A stretch of 64,000 bases of DNA from Nocardiopsis gilva YIM 90087 (lineage in GTDB: Bacteria > Actinomycetota > Actinomycetes > Streptosporangiales > Streptosporangiaceae). The stretch is taken from NCBI RefSeq assembly GCF_002263495.1, contig NZ_CP022753.1, positions 930,001 to 994,000 of the forward strand. Direction: 5' to 3'. The notes beneath the pieces were generated by a model. The model searched no databases and was not told the origin of the DNA. It was given only the letters and a program-made list of their open reading frames with translations. Numbering within the stretch: the first letter of the stretch is position 1; each line of letters begins with the position of its first letter. This document shows positions 24,031 through 59,771 of this stretch, in pieces. The position numbers and the translations under genes are program-made.

Positions 24031-24132
24031 GTCGTGTCTCTCCGCTGACGCCGCACCTGTCGGTCACGGCCGTGGCGGACGCGGAGACACCCCCTCATTC
24101 ACGCGTACCCAACTCTTCGAGGCGTGCTAGTC

Positions 24133-25173
24133 ATGGGCCGAGTCGTACTTGTCACCGGGGTCTCCCGCCATCTGGGCGCCCGGGCCGCGGAGAAACTGCT
24201 CGACGACCCCGGTGTCGACCGGGTCATCGGCGTCGATCCCGCGCCGCCGGGATACGCGCCGGGGCGGGTCGAGTACGTCGCCGCGGATCTCCATGACGAC
24301 AGTGTGAGCAGGGTCGTCCGCGACTCCGGCGCGGACACGGTCCTGCACCTCGGCCTCGCCACGGCGCCCGAGAGCGCCGAAGGCCGGACGGAGTCACAGG
24401 CCAACCACGTCCTCGGCACCATGCAGCTGCTGGCCGCGTGCCAGCGGTCCACGACCGTGCGGCGGCTCGTGGTGCGCTCCAGCGCGGCCGTCTACGGCGC
24501 CGCCGCGCACTCCGCGGAGCTGTACACGGAGGACCTGCGGGCGCGTGACATCCCGCGCTCCGCCTACGCCCAGGACGCCGCCGAGGTGGAGCGGCACACG
24601 CGCGGCCTGGCCCGCCGACGCCCGGACATGTCCGTGGCCGTCCTGCGCCTCGCCAACCTCATCGGCCCGTCGATGGAGACCCCGCTCGCCCGCTACTTCG
24701 GGCTCCGGGTCGTTCCCACGGTCCGCGGTTACGACCCGCGCATGCAGTTCATCCACGAGGACGACGCCGTCGAGGCCCTGAGCCTGATGGCCGTCGGCGA
24801 CGGCGCGGGCGTCTTCAACGTCGCGGCCCCCGGGGCCATCCCGCTGTCCCAGTGCCTGCGCCGGGCCGGGCGGCCCGGTGTGGCGATGCCCGAGCGCGGC
24901 CTGCGCATGCTGCGCGGCCTGGCTCGGCGCGGACGGATCGACTACTCGCCGGAGCAGCTGCGCCTGCTCTGCTCCGACCGCGTCATGGACGTCAGCAAGC
25001 TCCAGCGGACGGTGGGCTGGTCGCCGGCCTACACGTCGCAGGAGACCTTCGAGGCGTTCCTCGCGGAGCGCGGGGTCGACGGCGACGGCCCGAAGAACGG
25101 CCGCGAGCGCGGCCGAGACCGCGATCGCAGTCCCGTGATCCACCGGGTGCGGGCCGCGGTGGGGCGCTCGTAG
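24133..25173 (+). CDS. NAD-dependent epimerase/dehydratase (extended SDR)
   Basis: A 346-residue Rossmann-fold protein. The N-terminus VVLVTGVSRHLGARAAE is a variant of the TGxxGxxG dinucleotide site, followed by DLHDDS, LHLGLATAP and VVRSSAAVYG. The usual YxxxK is poorly kept (YAQDAAEVE, no Lys), so classic SDR catalysis may be altered. Residues after ~325 are a charged Arg/Asp tail. ATG 24133 is preferred over an upstream GTG at 24124. In other actinomycetes it is followed by a lysophospholipid acyltransferase; here a palindromic repeat and a convergent HAD gene follow. Confidence 0.85.
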   Translation: MGRVVLVTGVSRHLGARAAEKLLDDPGVDRVIGVDPAPPGYAPGRVEYVAADLHDDSVSRVVRDSGADTVLHLGLATAPESAEGRTESQANHVLGTMQLLAACQRSTTVRRLVVRSSAAVYGAAAHSAELYTEDLRARDIPRSAYAQDAAEVERHTRGLARRRPDMSVAVLRLANLIGPSMETPLARYFGLRVVPTVRGYDPRMQFIHEDDAVEALSLMAVGDGAGVFNVAAPGAIPLSQCLRRAGRPGVAMPERGLRMLRGLARRGRIDYSPEQLRLLCSDRVMDVSKLQRTVGWSPAYTSQETFEAFLAERGVDGDGPKNGRERGRDRDRSPVIHRVRAAVGRS

Positions 25174-25185
25174 CCCTCACTCTCT

Positions 25186-25249
25186 CGTTGATCTCGGGGA
25201 TATCGACCGAATACCCGCCAGAATTCGGTCGATATCCCCGAGATCAACG
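25186..25249. repeat. Long palindromic element, copy 1
   Basis: Perfect 27-bp inverted arms (25186-25212 and 25223-25249) begin CGTTGATCTCGGGG and end in CCGAAT, with a 10-base loop containing CCGCCA. The copy at 42735-42802 has the same arms. It lies between convergent genes (epimerase and HAD phosphatase), where it could also terminate transcription. Confidence 0.95.
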
Positions 25250-25266: not shown

Positions 25267-26085
25267 CTACTGCGTCCCCCGGCGGCGACGCATCACGCCC
25301 ACCGCCACCGCCCCGCCGATCGCGCCCGCGACGGCGGCGGACATCCCGACCCGCAGCTTCGCCCGGTGCCGGCGGAACTCGTGCACCGGCCACCCCTGCG
25401 CCTCGGCGTGCTCGCGCAACGCGTCGTCGGGGTTGACCGCGTTGGGGTGGCCCACGAGTGACAGCATCGGCAGGTCGTTGCACGAGTCGCTGTAGGCGGC
25501 GCAGGCCGACAGGTCCAACCCCTCGCGCCGCGCCAGGGTGCGCACGGCCTCGGCCTTGGCCGGGCCGTGCAGCAGGTCGCCCACCAGCCGTCCGGTGTAG
25601 ACGCCGTCGACCGTCTCGGCGACGGTCCCCAGAGCGCCGGTCAGGCCCAGCTTCCGCTTGATGATCTCGGCGAGTTCCACCGGGGTCGCGGTAACCAGCC
25701 AGACGCTCTGCCCGGCGTCGAGGTGGCGGCGGACGAGGTGGCGCGCGCCCTCCCAGATCCGGTCCGACATCGTCTCGTCGTAGATCTCCTCGCACAGCGA
25801 AACGAGGTCGTCCACGGCGTGCCCGGCGACGAACGCCAGCGCGGCCTCGCGCGCGGCGTGGATGTGCTCGGGCCGTTCGCTGCCGCTGAGCCGGAACACC
25901 GCCTGCCCCCACGCGAACCGCAGCAGGTCGCGCGTGGTGAACAGGTCGCGGGCGGCGAGTCCGCGCGCGAAGTAGTAGATCGACGCACCGCGCATCAGGG
26001 TGTTGTCGACATCGAAGAAGGCCCCGCCGCGCCGGACGATGGCGGCATCGCCGCCATTCTCATCAGGTCGGATATGCGCCCACAT
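25267..26085 (-). CDS. HAD-IB family hydrolase (SerB-like phosphatase)
   Basis: A 272-residue HAD phosphatase. Motif I is FFDVDNTL (nucleophile and acid Asp), motif II is LVTATP, a Lys follows in the GPAKAEAV region, and motif III is YSDSCNDLPML. The cap helix SIYYFARGLAARDLF is typical of the actinobacterial IB subgroup that includes SerB-like phosphatases of unsettled substrate. A hydrophobic segment near the C-terminus (AAVAGAIGGAVAVGVM, then RRRRG) suggests membrane attachment. It converges on the epimerase gene. Confidence 0.88.
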   Translation of the reverse strand: MWAHIRPDENGGDAAIVRRGGAFFDVDNTLMRGASIYYFARGLAARDLFTTRDLLRFAWGQAVFRLSGSERPEHIHAAREAALAFVAGHAVDDLVSLCEEIYDETMSDRIWEGARHLVRRHLDAGQSVWLVTATPVELAEIIKRKLGLTGALGTVAETVDGVYTGRLVGDLLHGPAKAEAVRTLARREGLDLSACAAYSDSCNDLPMLSLVGHPNAVNPDDALREHAEAQGWPVHEFRRHRAKLRVGMSAAVAGAIGGAVAVGVMRRRRGTQ

Positions 26086-31160: not shown

Positions 31161-31211
31161 CGAGCGCGTGCCCGCAGAGGAATCCCCTCTGCGGGCACGC
31201 GCTCGTCTTTT
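31161..31211 (+). terminator. Intrinsic terminator after the sulfur operon
   Basis: A perfect 20-bp stem (31161-31180 with 31186-31205), a 5-base loop and a following TCTTTT make this the clearest intrinsic terminator in the window. It ends the DUF4395-sseA-DUF1416 unit and lies before the EamA gene. Confidence 0.93.
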
Positions 31212-36439: not shown

Positions 36440-36530
36440 GACCCCGCGCGGCGCGCTCTTCGCACGTTCCCGCCTCCGTCGCGAGGACCAGCGGAAGCGC
36501 AGGGAGGCGGAGCAGAAGCGGAGCAACGCT

Positions 36531-36566
36531 GAAGGGCGGTGCCCCCGAACGGGGGCACCGCCCTTC
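36531..36566. terminator. Bidirectional terminator between gatD and GIDE-like gene
   Basis: A perfect 16-bp stem (36531-36546 with 36551-36566) with a GAAC loop lies between the convergent ends of gatD and the minus-strand gene at 36609. Confidence 0.85.
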
Positions 36567-36608
36567 ACCGTCGTGGCCCCGTCACCGGGGCACGCGTGCC
36601 ACGCCCTC

Positions 36609-39249: not shown

Positions 39250-39365
39250 GCCCTCGAGTCTAGGCGGTGGCCGGGTGACACCCGCCACGCCGGAGTCCGG
39301 CGTGAGGCCCGCGAAAAAACATTTGCCCTGTGTGGAGCGGCGGACATAACGTCAGAATCACGCAG

Positions 39366-39424
39366 GAAAGGAGGTGGTCCTAACAGTGAAGGCTTATGGG
39401 ACTTGCGAGGTGTCCGCCCGCTAG
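39366..39424 (+). other. Exceptionally strong ribosome site followed by a 12-codon ORF
   Basis: GAAAGGAGGTGGTCC (39366-39380) matches 14 of 15 bases of the full complement of the 16S rRNA 3' tail, the one change giving a G-U pair. Five bases later a GTG opens a 12-codon ORF (VKAYGTCEVSAR) ending at 39424. An ATG at 39397 opens another short frame. No larger gene follows on this strand for 1 kb, so this may be a leader or micropeptide. The rest of the 357-base gap (39250-39606) shows no gene. Confidence 0.45.
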
Positions 39425-39606
39425 GGCGACACGAAGAGTCGGATCGCTCTAGCGAATCCACAGTGGACACCCGGATCCCCGGGCAGCCGGACCTTGTCCT
39501 ACCCGGCCCCGCCGCCCAGCGGAGGGAAGCGCCTGGGGATCTGTCATGCCCGCGCCGTCCCCGGCCACGGGCATGACAACGGGCACCGCACCCGCCTGTT
39601 CCCGGC

Positions 39607-41925: not shown

Positions 41926-42672
41926 CTACTTCTTGCCCTGGTTCTTCACGGCTTCGATCGCGTCCTTGGCGGCCTCGGGGTCGAGGTACTCGCCACCGGT
42001 CTTGCGCGGCGTGAAGTCGTCGTTGAGCTCGTAGACGAGGGGGATGCCGGTCGGGATGTTGAGCCCGGCGATGGTCGCGTCGTCGATCCCGTCCAGGTGC
42101 TTGACCAGCGCGCGCAGCGAGTTGCCGTGCGCCGCGACCAGGACGGTGCGCCCGGCGGCCAGGTCCGGCACGATCTGGTCGTACCAGTACGGCAGCATGC
42201 GGTCGACGACGTCGGCCAGGCACTCCGTGCGCGGCATCAGCTCGGTCGGGAGCTCCGCGTAGCGGCGCTCGCCCACCTGGGAGTAGGGGTCGTTGTCGGC
42301 GATCGGCGGCGGGGGCGTGTCATACGAGCGGCGCCAGACCATGAACTGCTCGTCGCCGTACTCCTCGCGCGTCTGGGCCTTGTCCTTGCCCTGGAGCGCG
42401 CCGTAGTGGCGCTCGTTGAGCCGCCAGGAGCGCCGCACCGGAAGCCAGTGCAGGTCGGCGGCCTCAAGGGCGAGGTTGGCCGTGCGGATCGCGCGCTTGA
42501 GTACCGACGTGTGCACGATGTCGGGGCGAAGGTCGGCCTCGTGCAGCAGCTTGCCGCCCCTGCGCGCCTCCTCCTCACCCGTTGCCGAAAGGTCGACGTC
42601 CACCCAGCCGGTGAACAGTCCTTCGGCGTTCCAGACGCTTTCGCCGTGTCGAAGTAGAACCAGAGTCCCCAT
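41926..42672 (-). CDS. gpmA: 2,3-bisphosphoglycerate-dependent phosphoglycerate mutase
   Basis: A 248-residue glycolytic enzyme interconverting 3- and 2-phosphoglycerate. [20 protein letters not shown] holds the phosphorylated His. [22 protein letters not shown] and [19 protein letters not shown] are classic. Length matches E. coli GpmA. A palindromic repeat lies in the 139 bases upstream. The neighbourhood gpmA-YbjN-mshA is conserved in actinomycetes. Confidence 0.97.
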
Positions 42673-42734
42673 GGTGGCCAGCCTAGCGAGTCGGTGCCGG
42701 CGCCCTGACCTCGCCTTCGGCTTGGAGCCTCTCC

Positions 42735-42802
42735 TCCGTTGATCTCGGGGATATCGACCGAATTATGGCGGACATTCGGTCGATATCCCCGAGATCAACG
42801 GA
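42735..42802. repeat. Long palindromic element, copy 2
   Basis: Perfect 29-bp arms (42735-42763 and 42774-42802) with a 10-base loop. The inner 27 bases are identical to copy 1. The loop read on the minus strand contains CCGCCA, as in copy 1, so this copy is in the opposite orientation. It lies between YbjN (upstream) and gpmA, both on the minus strand. Confidence 0.95.
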
Positions 42803-42811
42803 AGTGGGGGG

Positions 42812-43321
42812 TTACCCGGGCCCCGGGCTCTCGATCAGGTGCCGGAAGGCCTCCAGGTTGCGCAGGCTGTACCCGCTGCTCTCGCGCCAGGCCCACTCCT
42901 TGCGGATCGAGGAGGCGAACCCGCGCTCCAGAGCCGCGTTGAAGTTCTCGTCGGAGTAGGTGAGCACGCAGCCCAGCAGCCGGTCCACCTCGTGCGGAGT
43001 GACGGCGGCCAGCGGCATTCGGCCGGTGATGTAGACGTCCCCGTTGTCATCAGCGGAGAAGGCCATGCCGTACATGTCCTCGTTCAGCTGCAGCAGCCAG
43101 CGGTAGAACCCGCCCTCGTTCTCGTCGGGCCGACGGCAGAAGAACGTCTTCACCAGGAGACTGTGCTCTCCGACGTTCAACCAGACCAGCGTCTTGAGCT
43201 TGCGCACGCCGGGCAGGGAGATCAGGAACGCTTCGGGGCGCGGACGCTCGAACTCGAGCTCCGCCTCCTTGACCGCGGTCTCGATCGCGGTGATGGCGTC
43301 GGCCTGGTGCTGCGTCGGCAT
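42812..43321 (-). CDS. YbjN-domain protein
   Basis: A 169-residue protein of the YbjN superfamily, related to type III secretion chaperone-like folds: LVWLNVGEHSLLVKTFFCRRPDENEGGFYRWLLQLNEDMYGMAFSADDNGDVYITGRMPL is diagnostic (only partly quoted by its blocks LVWLNVGEHS, FYRWLLQLNE and DVYITGRMPL for reference). It lies just after mshA on the same strand, a position conserved in actinomycetes, so a shared regulation is likely; its biochemical role is unknown. Confidence 0.87.
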   Translation of the reverse strand: MPTQHQADAITAIETAVKEAELEFERPRPEAFLISLPGVRKLKTLVWLNVGEHSLLVKTFFCRRPDENEGGFYRWLLQLNEDMYGMAFSADDNGDVYITGRMPLAAVTPHEVDRLLGCVLTYSDENFNAALERGFASSIRKEWAWRESSGYSLRNLEAFRHLIESPGPG

Positions 43322-55160: not shown

Positions 55161-55586
55161 GTGCGAGCGGTCGTGCAACGCGTCGCCAACGCCGCGGTGA
55201 CGGTCGAGGGCGCCGTCGTCGGCGAGATCACCCGGCCCGGCCTGCTGGCGCTGGTCGGCGTCACCCACAGCGATACCGAGGCCGAGGCCCGCAAGCTCGC
55301 CGCGAAACTGTGGAAGCTGCGGATCCTCGACGACGAGAAGTCCTGCTCCGACATCGGCGCCCCGCTGCTGGTGGTCAGCCAGTTCACGCTGTACGGCGAC
55401 GCGCGCAAGGGACGCCGCCCCACCTGGCAGGCGGCGGCGCCCGGATCGGTGGCCGAACCCCTGGTCGACGCGGTCGTCAAGGAGCTCCGCGATCTGGGAG
55501 CCGAGGTCGCGACCGGGGTGTTCGGCGCCATGATGTCGGTGTCCCTCACCAACGAGGGCCCGTTCACCGTCATCGTCGAGGTCTGA
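55161..55586 (+). CDS. dtd: D-aminoacyl-tRNA deacylase
   Basis: A 141-residue trans-editing enzyme removing D-amino acids from tRNA. The catalytic [17 protein letters not shown] and the Gly-cisPro-type loop [11 protein letters not shown] are intact, and [16 protein letters not shown] is the family start. GTG start with GGGGAG upstream. It ends nine bases before the third palindromic element and converges on regX3. Confidence 0.96.
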
Positions 55587-55594
55587 TACCCCAT

Positions 55595-55666
55595 CCTCCG
55601 TTGATCTCGGAGATATTGGGGTAAAAAGCGGCGCTGAGACCCCAATATTCCCGAGATCAACGGAGG
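55595..55666. repeat. Long palindromic element, copy 3 (variant)
   Basis: 28-base arms (55595-55622 and 55639-55666) with two adjacent mismatches and a 16-base loop. The outer ends CCTCCGTTGATCTCGG/CCGAGATCAACGGAGG are shared with copies 1 and 2, but the inner arms differ (ATATTGGGGT with ACCCCAATAT) and still pair. It lies between the convergent ends of dtd and regX3. Confidence 0.92.
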
Positions 55667-55673
55667 GGGTGGG

Positions 55674-56369
55674 CTACCCCTCCGCGGCGGCGGGCTCGAA
55701 CTTGTAGCCCAGGCCGCGGACGGTGACGATGAACTTCGGATTGCCGGGGTCGTGCTCGATCTTCGCGCGCAGTCGCTTGACGTGCACGTCGAGGGTCTTG
55801 GTGTCGCCCACGTAGTCGGCGCCCCACACCCGGTCGATCAGCTGCATCCGGGTCAGCACCCGCCCCGCGTTGCGGAGCAGCACCTCCAGCAGCTCGAACT
55901 CCTTCAGTGGGAGCTGGACACTGTCGCCGCGCACCGTCACCACGTGCCGCTCCACGTCCATGCGGACCGGACCGACCTCCAGGGCGGTGGGCAGGGCCAC
56001 CTCGTCCTCACCCCGGCGGCGGAGTACCGCCCGGATGCGGGCGACGAGCTCACGCGAGGAGAACGGCTTGGTCACGTAGTCGTCGGCGCCCAGCTCCAGG
56101 CCGACGACCTTGTCGATCTCACTGTCCTTGGCCGTGAGCATGATGACTGGCACGTTGGACTTCTGCCGCAGCGTTCGGCACACCTCGGTGCCCGGCAGGC
56201 CGGGCAGCATCAGGTCGAGAAGTACCAGGTCGGCCCCGGTCCGGTCGAACGTGTCCAACGCGACCGTCCCCGTCGATGCCACCGCGACCTCGAAGCCCTC
56301 TTTGCGCAGCATGTACGACAGGGCATCGCTGTAGGATTCCTCGTCCTCAACGACAAGTACACGCGTCAC
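55674..56369 (-). CDS. regX3: RegX3/PhoP-type response regulator
   Basis: A 231-residue OmpR-family regulator of phosphate starvation. Phosphoacceptor Asp52 lies in LVLLDLMLPG, with the acidic pair VVEDEE and the Lys in TKPFSSREL. The DNA-binding half has LKEFELLEVLLRNAGRVLTR and KTLDVHVKRLRAKIE. It starts at GTG 56369 inside the senX3 stop (GTGA overlap), so the two are coupled. The predicted target is the PHO box at 6767-6810 before pstS. Confidence 0.95.
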   Translation of the reverse strand: MTRVLVVEDEESYSDALSYMLRKEGFEVAVASTGTVALDTFDRTGADLVLLDLMLPGLPGTEVCRTLRQKSNVPVIMLTAKDSEIDKVVGLELGADDYVTKPFSSRELVARIRAVLRRRGEDEVALPTALEVGPVRMDVERHVVTVRGDSVQLPLKEFELLEVLLRNAGRVLTRMQLIDRVWGADYVGDTKTLDVHVKRLRAKIEHDPGNPKFIVTVRGLGYKFEPAAAEG

Positions 56370-59728: not shown

Positions 59729-59771
59729 AAACGGGGGCGGGGGACCTGTACCAGGTCCCCCGCCCCCGTTT
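59729..59771. terminator. Bidirectional terminator between ispF and DUF2637 gene
   Basis: A perfect 20-bp stem (59729-59748 with 59752-59771) with a three-base TAC loop begins with AAA and ends with TTT, so it should work on both strands between convergent genes. Confidence 0.9.

Follow-up and report, generated by a model that had tools for sequence, protein, structure and literature searches.

REP elements carrying a GTAG or CGTC tag are units of 20-40 bp (PMC3733652, PMC3116915, PMC8266576). Their spread by gene conversion was proposed in 1988 by Higgins et al., as cited in PMC12306157. Non-canonical terminators are said to be numerous in mycobacteria (PMC4167861). It is a long-standing question how short palindromic repeats manage to spread while remaining uniform when no enzyme is evident. 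The palindrome family described here is hosted by a small Nocardiopsis-related group of actinobacteria, in which it sits directly behind stop codons with a preference for convergent gene pairs. A literature search turned up no paper on palindromic intergenic repeats of Nocardiopsis.

The window, the whole 64-kb stretch of DNA that was analysed, covers positions 930001-994000 of a 6.14-Mb genome (G000) and holds three copies of the palindrome, none assigned to a strand. Copy 1 (25186-25249) belongs to subfamily A, with arms CGTTGATCTCGGGGATATCGACCGAAT. These 27-nt arms (25186-25212 and 25223-25249) are 100% complementary and enclose a 10-nt loop, ACCCGCCAGA. The copy lies between convergent genes, 12 nt 3' of the stop of a gene of the NAD-dependent epimerase/dehydratase family (24124-25173, + strand, PF01370) and 17 nt 3' of the stop of a HAD-like hydrolase (HAD-phosphatase) gene (25267-26085, - strand, PF12710). 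Copy 2 (42735-42802), also of subfamily A, has perfect 29-nt arms (42735-42763 and 42774-42802) that extend to 42728-42809 at 92%. Its 10-nt loop is TATGGCGGAC, and the reverse complement of this loop, GTCCGCCATA, contains CCGCCA and matches the orientation of copy 1. It sits in a tandem pair, 9 nt 3' of the stop of a YbjN-domain gene (42812-43321, - strand, PF10722) and upstream of a histidine phosphatase superfamily gene (41926-42672, - strand, PF00300). Copy 3 (55595-55666) is a diverged member of subfamily B, with 28-nt arms, CCTCCGTTGATCTCGGAGATATTGGGGT, that are 93% complementary (two mismatches) and 16 nt apart. It is again between convergent genes, 8 nt 3' of the stop of a D-Tyr-tRNA(Tyr) deacylase gene (55173-55586, + strand, PF02580) and 7 nt 3' of that of an OmpR-type response regulator (55674-56369, - strand, PF00072, PF00486). 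The constant 62-mer lies at 25187-25248, 42738-42799 and 55600-55661 in copies 1 to 3.

The 17-nt core of the arm, allowing up to 3 mismatches, occurs six times in the window against 0.04 expected by chance. Over the whole of G000 there are 145 strict palindromes of the form GTTGATCTC-N44-GAGATCAAC, nearly all of exactly 62 nt, and a reversed control pattern gave 0. Chance palindromes are ruled out by these two comparisons. The element is 62 nt long, or up to ~72 nt when the paired outer flank is counted. Its outer 11 nt (GTTGATCTCGG) are fixed. The inner arms, in which one side varies with the other, form several subfamilies: A, GGGGATATCGACCGAAT (copies 1 and 2); B, GGAGATATTGGGGT (copy 3); C, GGGAAAGTGCGCC; D, GGCGACGTGCACC; and others. 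The loops are variable and centred on CG-rich CGCC/GGCG-like cores. Copies in G000 are mostly single rather than paired and unevenly spread, the first 0.69 Mb containing only 3 strict ones.

The preliminary description was made from copies 1 and 2, for which it reported identical 27-nt arms, ten-base loops and mutual inversion; the arm and loop coordinates and the loop sequences confirm all three. The loop core it singled out, CCGCCA, is common to these two copies but is one version among the varying cores of the family. Its suggestion of a REP/MITE-like element is supported by the 145 genomic copies, the copies in relatives, the differing presence between species and the identical distant copies, but not by any link to RAYT. 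With copies found throughout the genome and in relatives, the objection that there might be no others falls away. The original observation holds and, if anything, says too little.

Genes were called with a simple codon-usage gene caller. Among 165 distinct copies examined in five species, 97 are at convergent, 61 at tandem and 5 at divergent positions, against a background of 410 convergent, 1271 tandem and 373 divergent gene pairs. The convergent share is 60%, compared with 20% expected (Fisher p ~8e-26). Divergent positions are depleted (Fisher p 1.6e-8), and copies are almost never at promoters. Called genes contain the remaining 2 of the 165, making the element extragenic as well as high-copy and palindromic. 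The median distance from a copy to the nearest stop codon is 14-42 nt, depending on the species. The relation to gene 3' ends that had been raised for copies 1 and 2 therefore holds for the family, whose members sit behind stop codons, mostly in convergent pairs. In short copy-free intergenic regions of a second species (G001), hairpin z-scores below -2 were found in 75% of convergent, 38% of tandem and 33% of divergent regions. The positions of the copies are the terminator niche, filled elsewhere by unrelated GC-rich hairpins.

The window has other structured elements of its own. Long GC hairpins unrelated to the family lie at 59729-59771 and 36526-36571, both between convergent genes, and at 2308-2362. 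A perfect 20-bp hairpin followed by TCTTTTCG (31161-31205) is the only strong canonical-looking terminator within 25-43 kb. Rfam matched RF02471 (Ms_IGR-5, an actinobacterial sRNA) at 39360-39549 on the + strand with 84.2 bits. It matched no family at any copy of the palindrome, and a known RNA family was rejected on this ground.

The arms covary. Two species contributed 58 copies, in which 91.8% of pairs are formed, compared with 75.5% when partners are shuffled (maximum 77.1%), and 18 of 24 arm pairs had changes on both sides, compared with 7-11 when slid. Predicted RNA folds of the palindromes range from -49 to -57 kcal/mol on both strands. The flanks are C/T-rich before the hairpin and G/A-rich after it, no U-run was found 3' of the hairpins, and terminator calling did not report copies 1 and 2 as intrinsic. 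In tandem copies, 29 mismatches on the transcript strand are A-C and 32 are G-U. RNA-level selection through G-U pairs was rejected, as tandem copies have no G-U bias over A-C. With neither a U-run nor a G-U excess, pairing seems to be kept at the DNA level or for both strands. The hairpin probably has a two-way role at 3' ends, as a transcription barrier or an RNA-end structure. Arms of this kind had been thought to go beyond what terminators need. This was half right: the sites are exactly terminator-like, but the U-run is missing, and the constancy of the sequence and its exchange require a copying process as well.

The same features could be read as binding sites of a sequence-specific DNA-binding protein, related to the nucleoid, gyrase or recombination, that reads the inverted GTTGATCTCGG at a fixed distance. 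The constant 11-nt ends, the 62-nt spacing and the covarying inner arms fit a DNA-level dyad, as do mismatches without RNA-strand bias. However, a protein reading only the ends would not need paired inner arms, siting at gene ends is unexpected for a generic binding site, and there is no candidate protein. We consider this explanation improbable.

The host range is narrow. There are 93 strict copies in G001, the only other species of the genus covered, and 52 in Nocardiopsis suaedae (G009). The strict pattern gave no match in 55 other genera and one unrelated chance match in each of two more. Related sets occur in N. suaedae, N. endophytica, N. halophila, N. chromatogenes and G001. Among the matches listed from a scan of 84,980 species genomes, N. 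chromatogenes has a few and N. endophytica, N. suaedae and N. halophila have many; the remaining listed matches look like chance. A looser pattern stayed at background level across the phylum (396 genomes, with counts of at most 25, against 150 in G000), and a broad actinobacterial family was rejected on these counts. INPHARED phages, PLSDB plasmids and IMG/VR contained no match, and spread by known phages or plasmids was likewise rejected.

Some genera stood out when the looser pattern was applied to 251 genomes of the family. One genome (G065, genus g63) has an independent look-alike family, TGATC-N48-GATCA, with the same spacing and other arms (for example TTGACCTTTTCGGGGTCTCA). It numbers well over 100 copies at a similar density, as at L270 14274-14337. 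In another (G082, genus g80) there are arrays of a ~52-bp unit, TGATCATGCACAGATTCCC...CGTGATCA, which is non-palindromic and a different repeat family. Matches to TGATC...GATCA reach 689-851 per genome in G082 and in four genomes of genus g22 (G022, G100, G148 and G167).

The slot comparison used 0.7 Mb of sequence from G000 and 0.8 Mb from G001. Syntenic flanks were found for 26 copies, and 10 of the 26 slots are occupied in both genomes, where 3.3 are expected (P=0.0006). Flank identity at the common slots is 82-91%, and the distance from copy to stop is conserved slot by slot (permutation p=0.002). The inner arms at these slots agree at 17.6 of 40 positions, compared with 21.8 +/- 7.9 for random pairs. 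Orthologous slots are occupied in both genomes, then, by inner arms that are no more alike than those of random pairs. At the slot of G000:1154631 the right flank is identical at 29 of 30 positions up to the element and the arms differ (A versus B). Some otherwise empty G001 slots carry remnants such as CCGAGATCAACG. The slot of copy 1, found in other genomes of the family by using the ortholog of the HAD-like hydrolase (25267-26085) as an anchor, has no copy in G001 and a copy of another subfamily in N. suaedae; at the loci read in the 27 remaining genera of the family, there was no copy.

At most G000/G001 slots an exact boundary cannot be fixed because the intergenic flanks are too diverged. 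The abutting flanks show no excess identity at same over different slots (13.1 versus 12.3 of 24 positions), which leaves room for independent insertions that recur close to the stop codon. Boundary identity is uninformative at most of these slots when taken as proof of exchange in place.

The slot data bear on the view that these are pure terminators, vertically inherited, with arms that drift while compensatory changes, favoured by selection, preserve the pairing. That view fits the 3'-end location, the covariation, the fixed length and the unrelated hairpins that occupy the same niche at copy-free convergent genes. Gradual drift, however, cannot give discrete arm subfamilies across dozens of loci in one genome, nor orthologous slots whose arms are no more alike than those of random pairs. 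Nor does it fit with exact distant copies in G000 (165599 and 759801 are reverse complements of each other and 1068401 and 2531391 are identical, loops included in both cases) or with an extra pair in N. endophytica beside a hairpin that is present in both species compared below. Already largely refuted, it is the least probable of the explanations we have weighed.

N. endophytica and N. suaedae are syntenic, with 85-94% identity. Single N. endophytica copies are absent from N. suaedae at 93% and 95% flank identity, and a copy pair beside a GC hairpin common to the two species is absent from N. suaedae. Where slots have 92-98% flank identity, inner arms agree at 36-40 of 40 positions. One slot shows an exact in-place flip between N. 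suaedae L137 and N. endophytica, with unchanged flanks at 98% identity. Turnover between the two species is shown by copies present in one lineage, by the co-inserted pair and by the exact flip.

Other arrangements are seen in these genomes. In N. endophytica, palindromes occur as pairs 90-92 nt apart (L169, L193 and L205) and, close behind stops, within a ~160-bp unit, GCGGACAGGCGGG...CCCGCCTGTCCGC (L151, L191, L222, L223 and others). In N. suaedae the palindrome lies within a ~185-bp MITE-like repeat, CCTAGGACCTGTC...GACAGGCCCTAGG, at L177 1628-1813 and other loci. Two palindromes flank one gene at G009:C2 (~93.7-95.0 kb), G182:C4 (28.4-29.7 kb) and N. halophila L234, and coincide with the borders of a divergent block. 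The N. suaedae block between them is a divergent allele, with 65-77% identity compared with 74-85% between G182:C4 and L234. Two N. suaedae 'exchanges', polarised with an outgroup, were discarded as the two ends of this one replaced 1.2-kb block.

We give an even chance to the explanation that the family is a REP-like, non-autonomous 3'-end hairpin in a terminator-like niche, its interior renewed by copying between loci. The main rival, close behind, is that an unidentified transposase inserts the palindrome in trans, in the manner of a MITE, just behind stop codons, the common slots being independent hot-spot insertions or insertions after loss. We take this seriously, at somewhat less than even. 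Lineage-specific presence at syntenic sites, the copies within larger MITE-like units in N. endophytica and N. suaedae and the strong clustering within ~30 nt of stops would all be expected of it, and the remnants at otherwise empty G001 slots suggest loss. Against it, no target duplication was seen in empty-site alignments, in which intergenic sequence is too diverged at most sites. In the 1.5 Mb of G000 and G001 there is no autonomous element with GTTGATCTCGG ends and single half-sites form no inverted pair at a spacing of 0.3-4 kb, no PF01797 transposase adjoins the copies, and stop distance is conserved slot by slot between species.

The REP-associated transposase that the preliminary description had envisaged did not appear. 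G000 has two PF01797 genes, one with no copy in the 16-kb stretch around it and the other with its nearest copy ~6 kb away. No copy lies in the 16 kb surrounding the PF01797 gene of G001, and PF01797 is represented in the copy-rich N. suaedae by nothing more than a 30-residue fragment. A RAYT-driven REP was rejected on this evidence. No enzyme behind copying or insertion was identified in this analysis.

On the favoured reading, renewal would happen by copying in place, rather than through loss and re-insertion. The slot persists between species, and its inner arms and loop would be replaced there. Copies of another subfamily would come into an occupied slot, the simplest route being transfer of sequence from a second locus between the constant GTTGATCTCGG ends, and the loop can flip. 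Ectopic gene conversion and template switching at the hairpin are candidate routes. More speculatively, and we lean against it, the family may represent a transposase-free class of repeat in which the arms of 3'-end hairpins are rewritten in place between ~11-nt constant ends and loops flip, so that position is inherited and sequence is not. If true, transposase-free rewriting would offer a direct example in nature of the 1988 gene-conversion model for REP. The family has no tagged ends or RAYT neighbour, and its slots can be traced across species at graded divergence. Because slots persist while inner arms exchange, conversion and re-insertion can be told apart at the strain level. The family also supplies actinobacterial genetics with candidate two-way terminators.

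The family resembles REP, BIME and REPIN sequences in being short, palindromic and extragenic, with more than 100 copies per genome, several subfamilies and species-specific sets (PMC3733652, PMC3116915, PMC8266576). N. endophytica also has close copy pairs, as in REPINs and BIMEs, and the copies of G000 are mostly single. It differs from REP in its size, as its members are near-perfect hairpins of 62-72 nt rather than 20-40 bp, and in having no GTAG or CGTC tag and no RAYT neighbour (PMC3733652, PMC8266576). By inspection, no such tag abuts the listed copies, which end in GTTGATC...GATCAAC. It also differs in its strict preference for convergent 3' ends and its combination of constant outer ends with exchangeable inner arms. 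Like MITEs, the family is non-autonomous, inverted-repeat and lineage-specific, and the palindrome lies inside MITE-like units in two Nocardiopsis species. In G000, however, the palindrome itself is the repeat, and no partner transposase was found, nor a target duplication in the empty-site alignments.

With actinobacterial terminator-like hairpins that lack a U-tract, the family shares its GC-richness and its place behind stops and between convergent genes. It has the hairpin behind the stop of an intrinsic terminator, without the U-run. Ordinary terminators are mutually unrelated, whereas the members of this family are copies with a fixed length and fixed ends. Its likeness to the Neisseria DUS lies in a fixed short word, found as inverted pairs behind genes, forming hairpins and thought to be spread by recombination (PMC2397512). 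Unlike the DUS, it has no large pool of single words: 85-90% of the GTTGATCTCGG 11-mers fall within palindromes, and G000 has 168 and 158 half-sites on the two strands against 143 palindromes with the full 11-nt ends on both sides, leaving not many DUS-type single copies outside hairpins. We know of no uptake role for the palindrome family. Failing REP on size, tag and RAYT, and DUS on single copies, it nevertheless works like REP elements and inverted DUS terminators.
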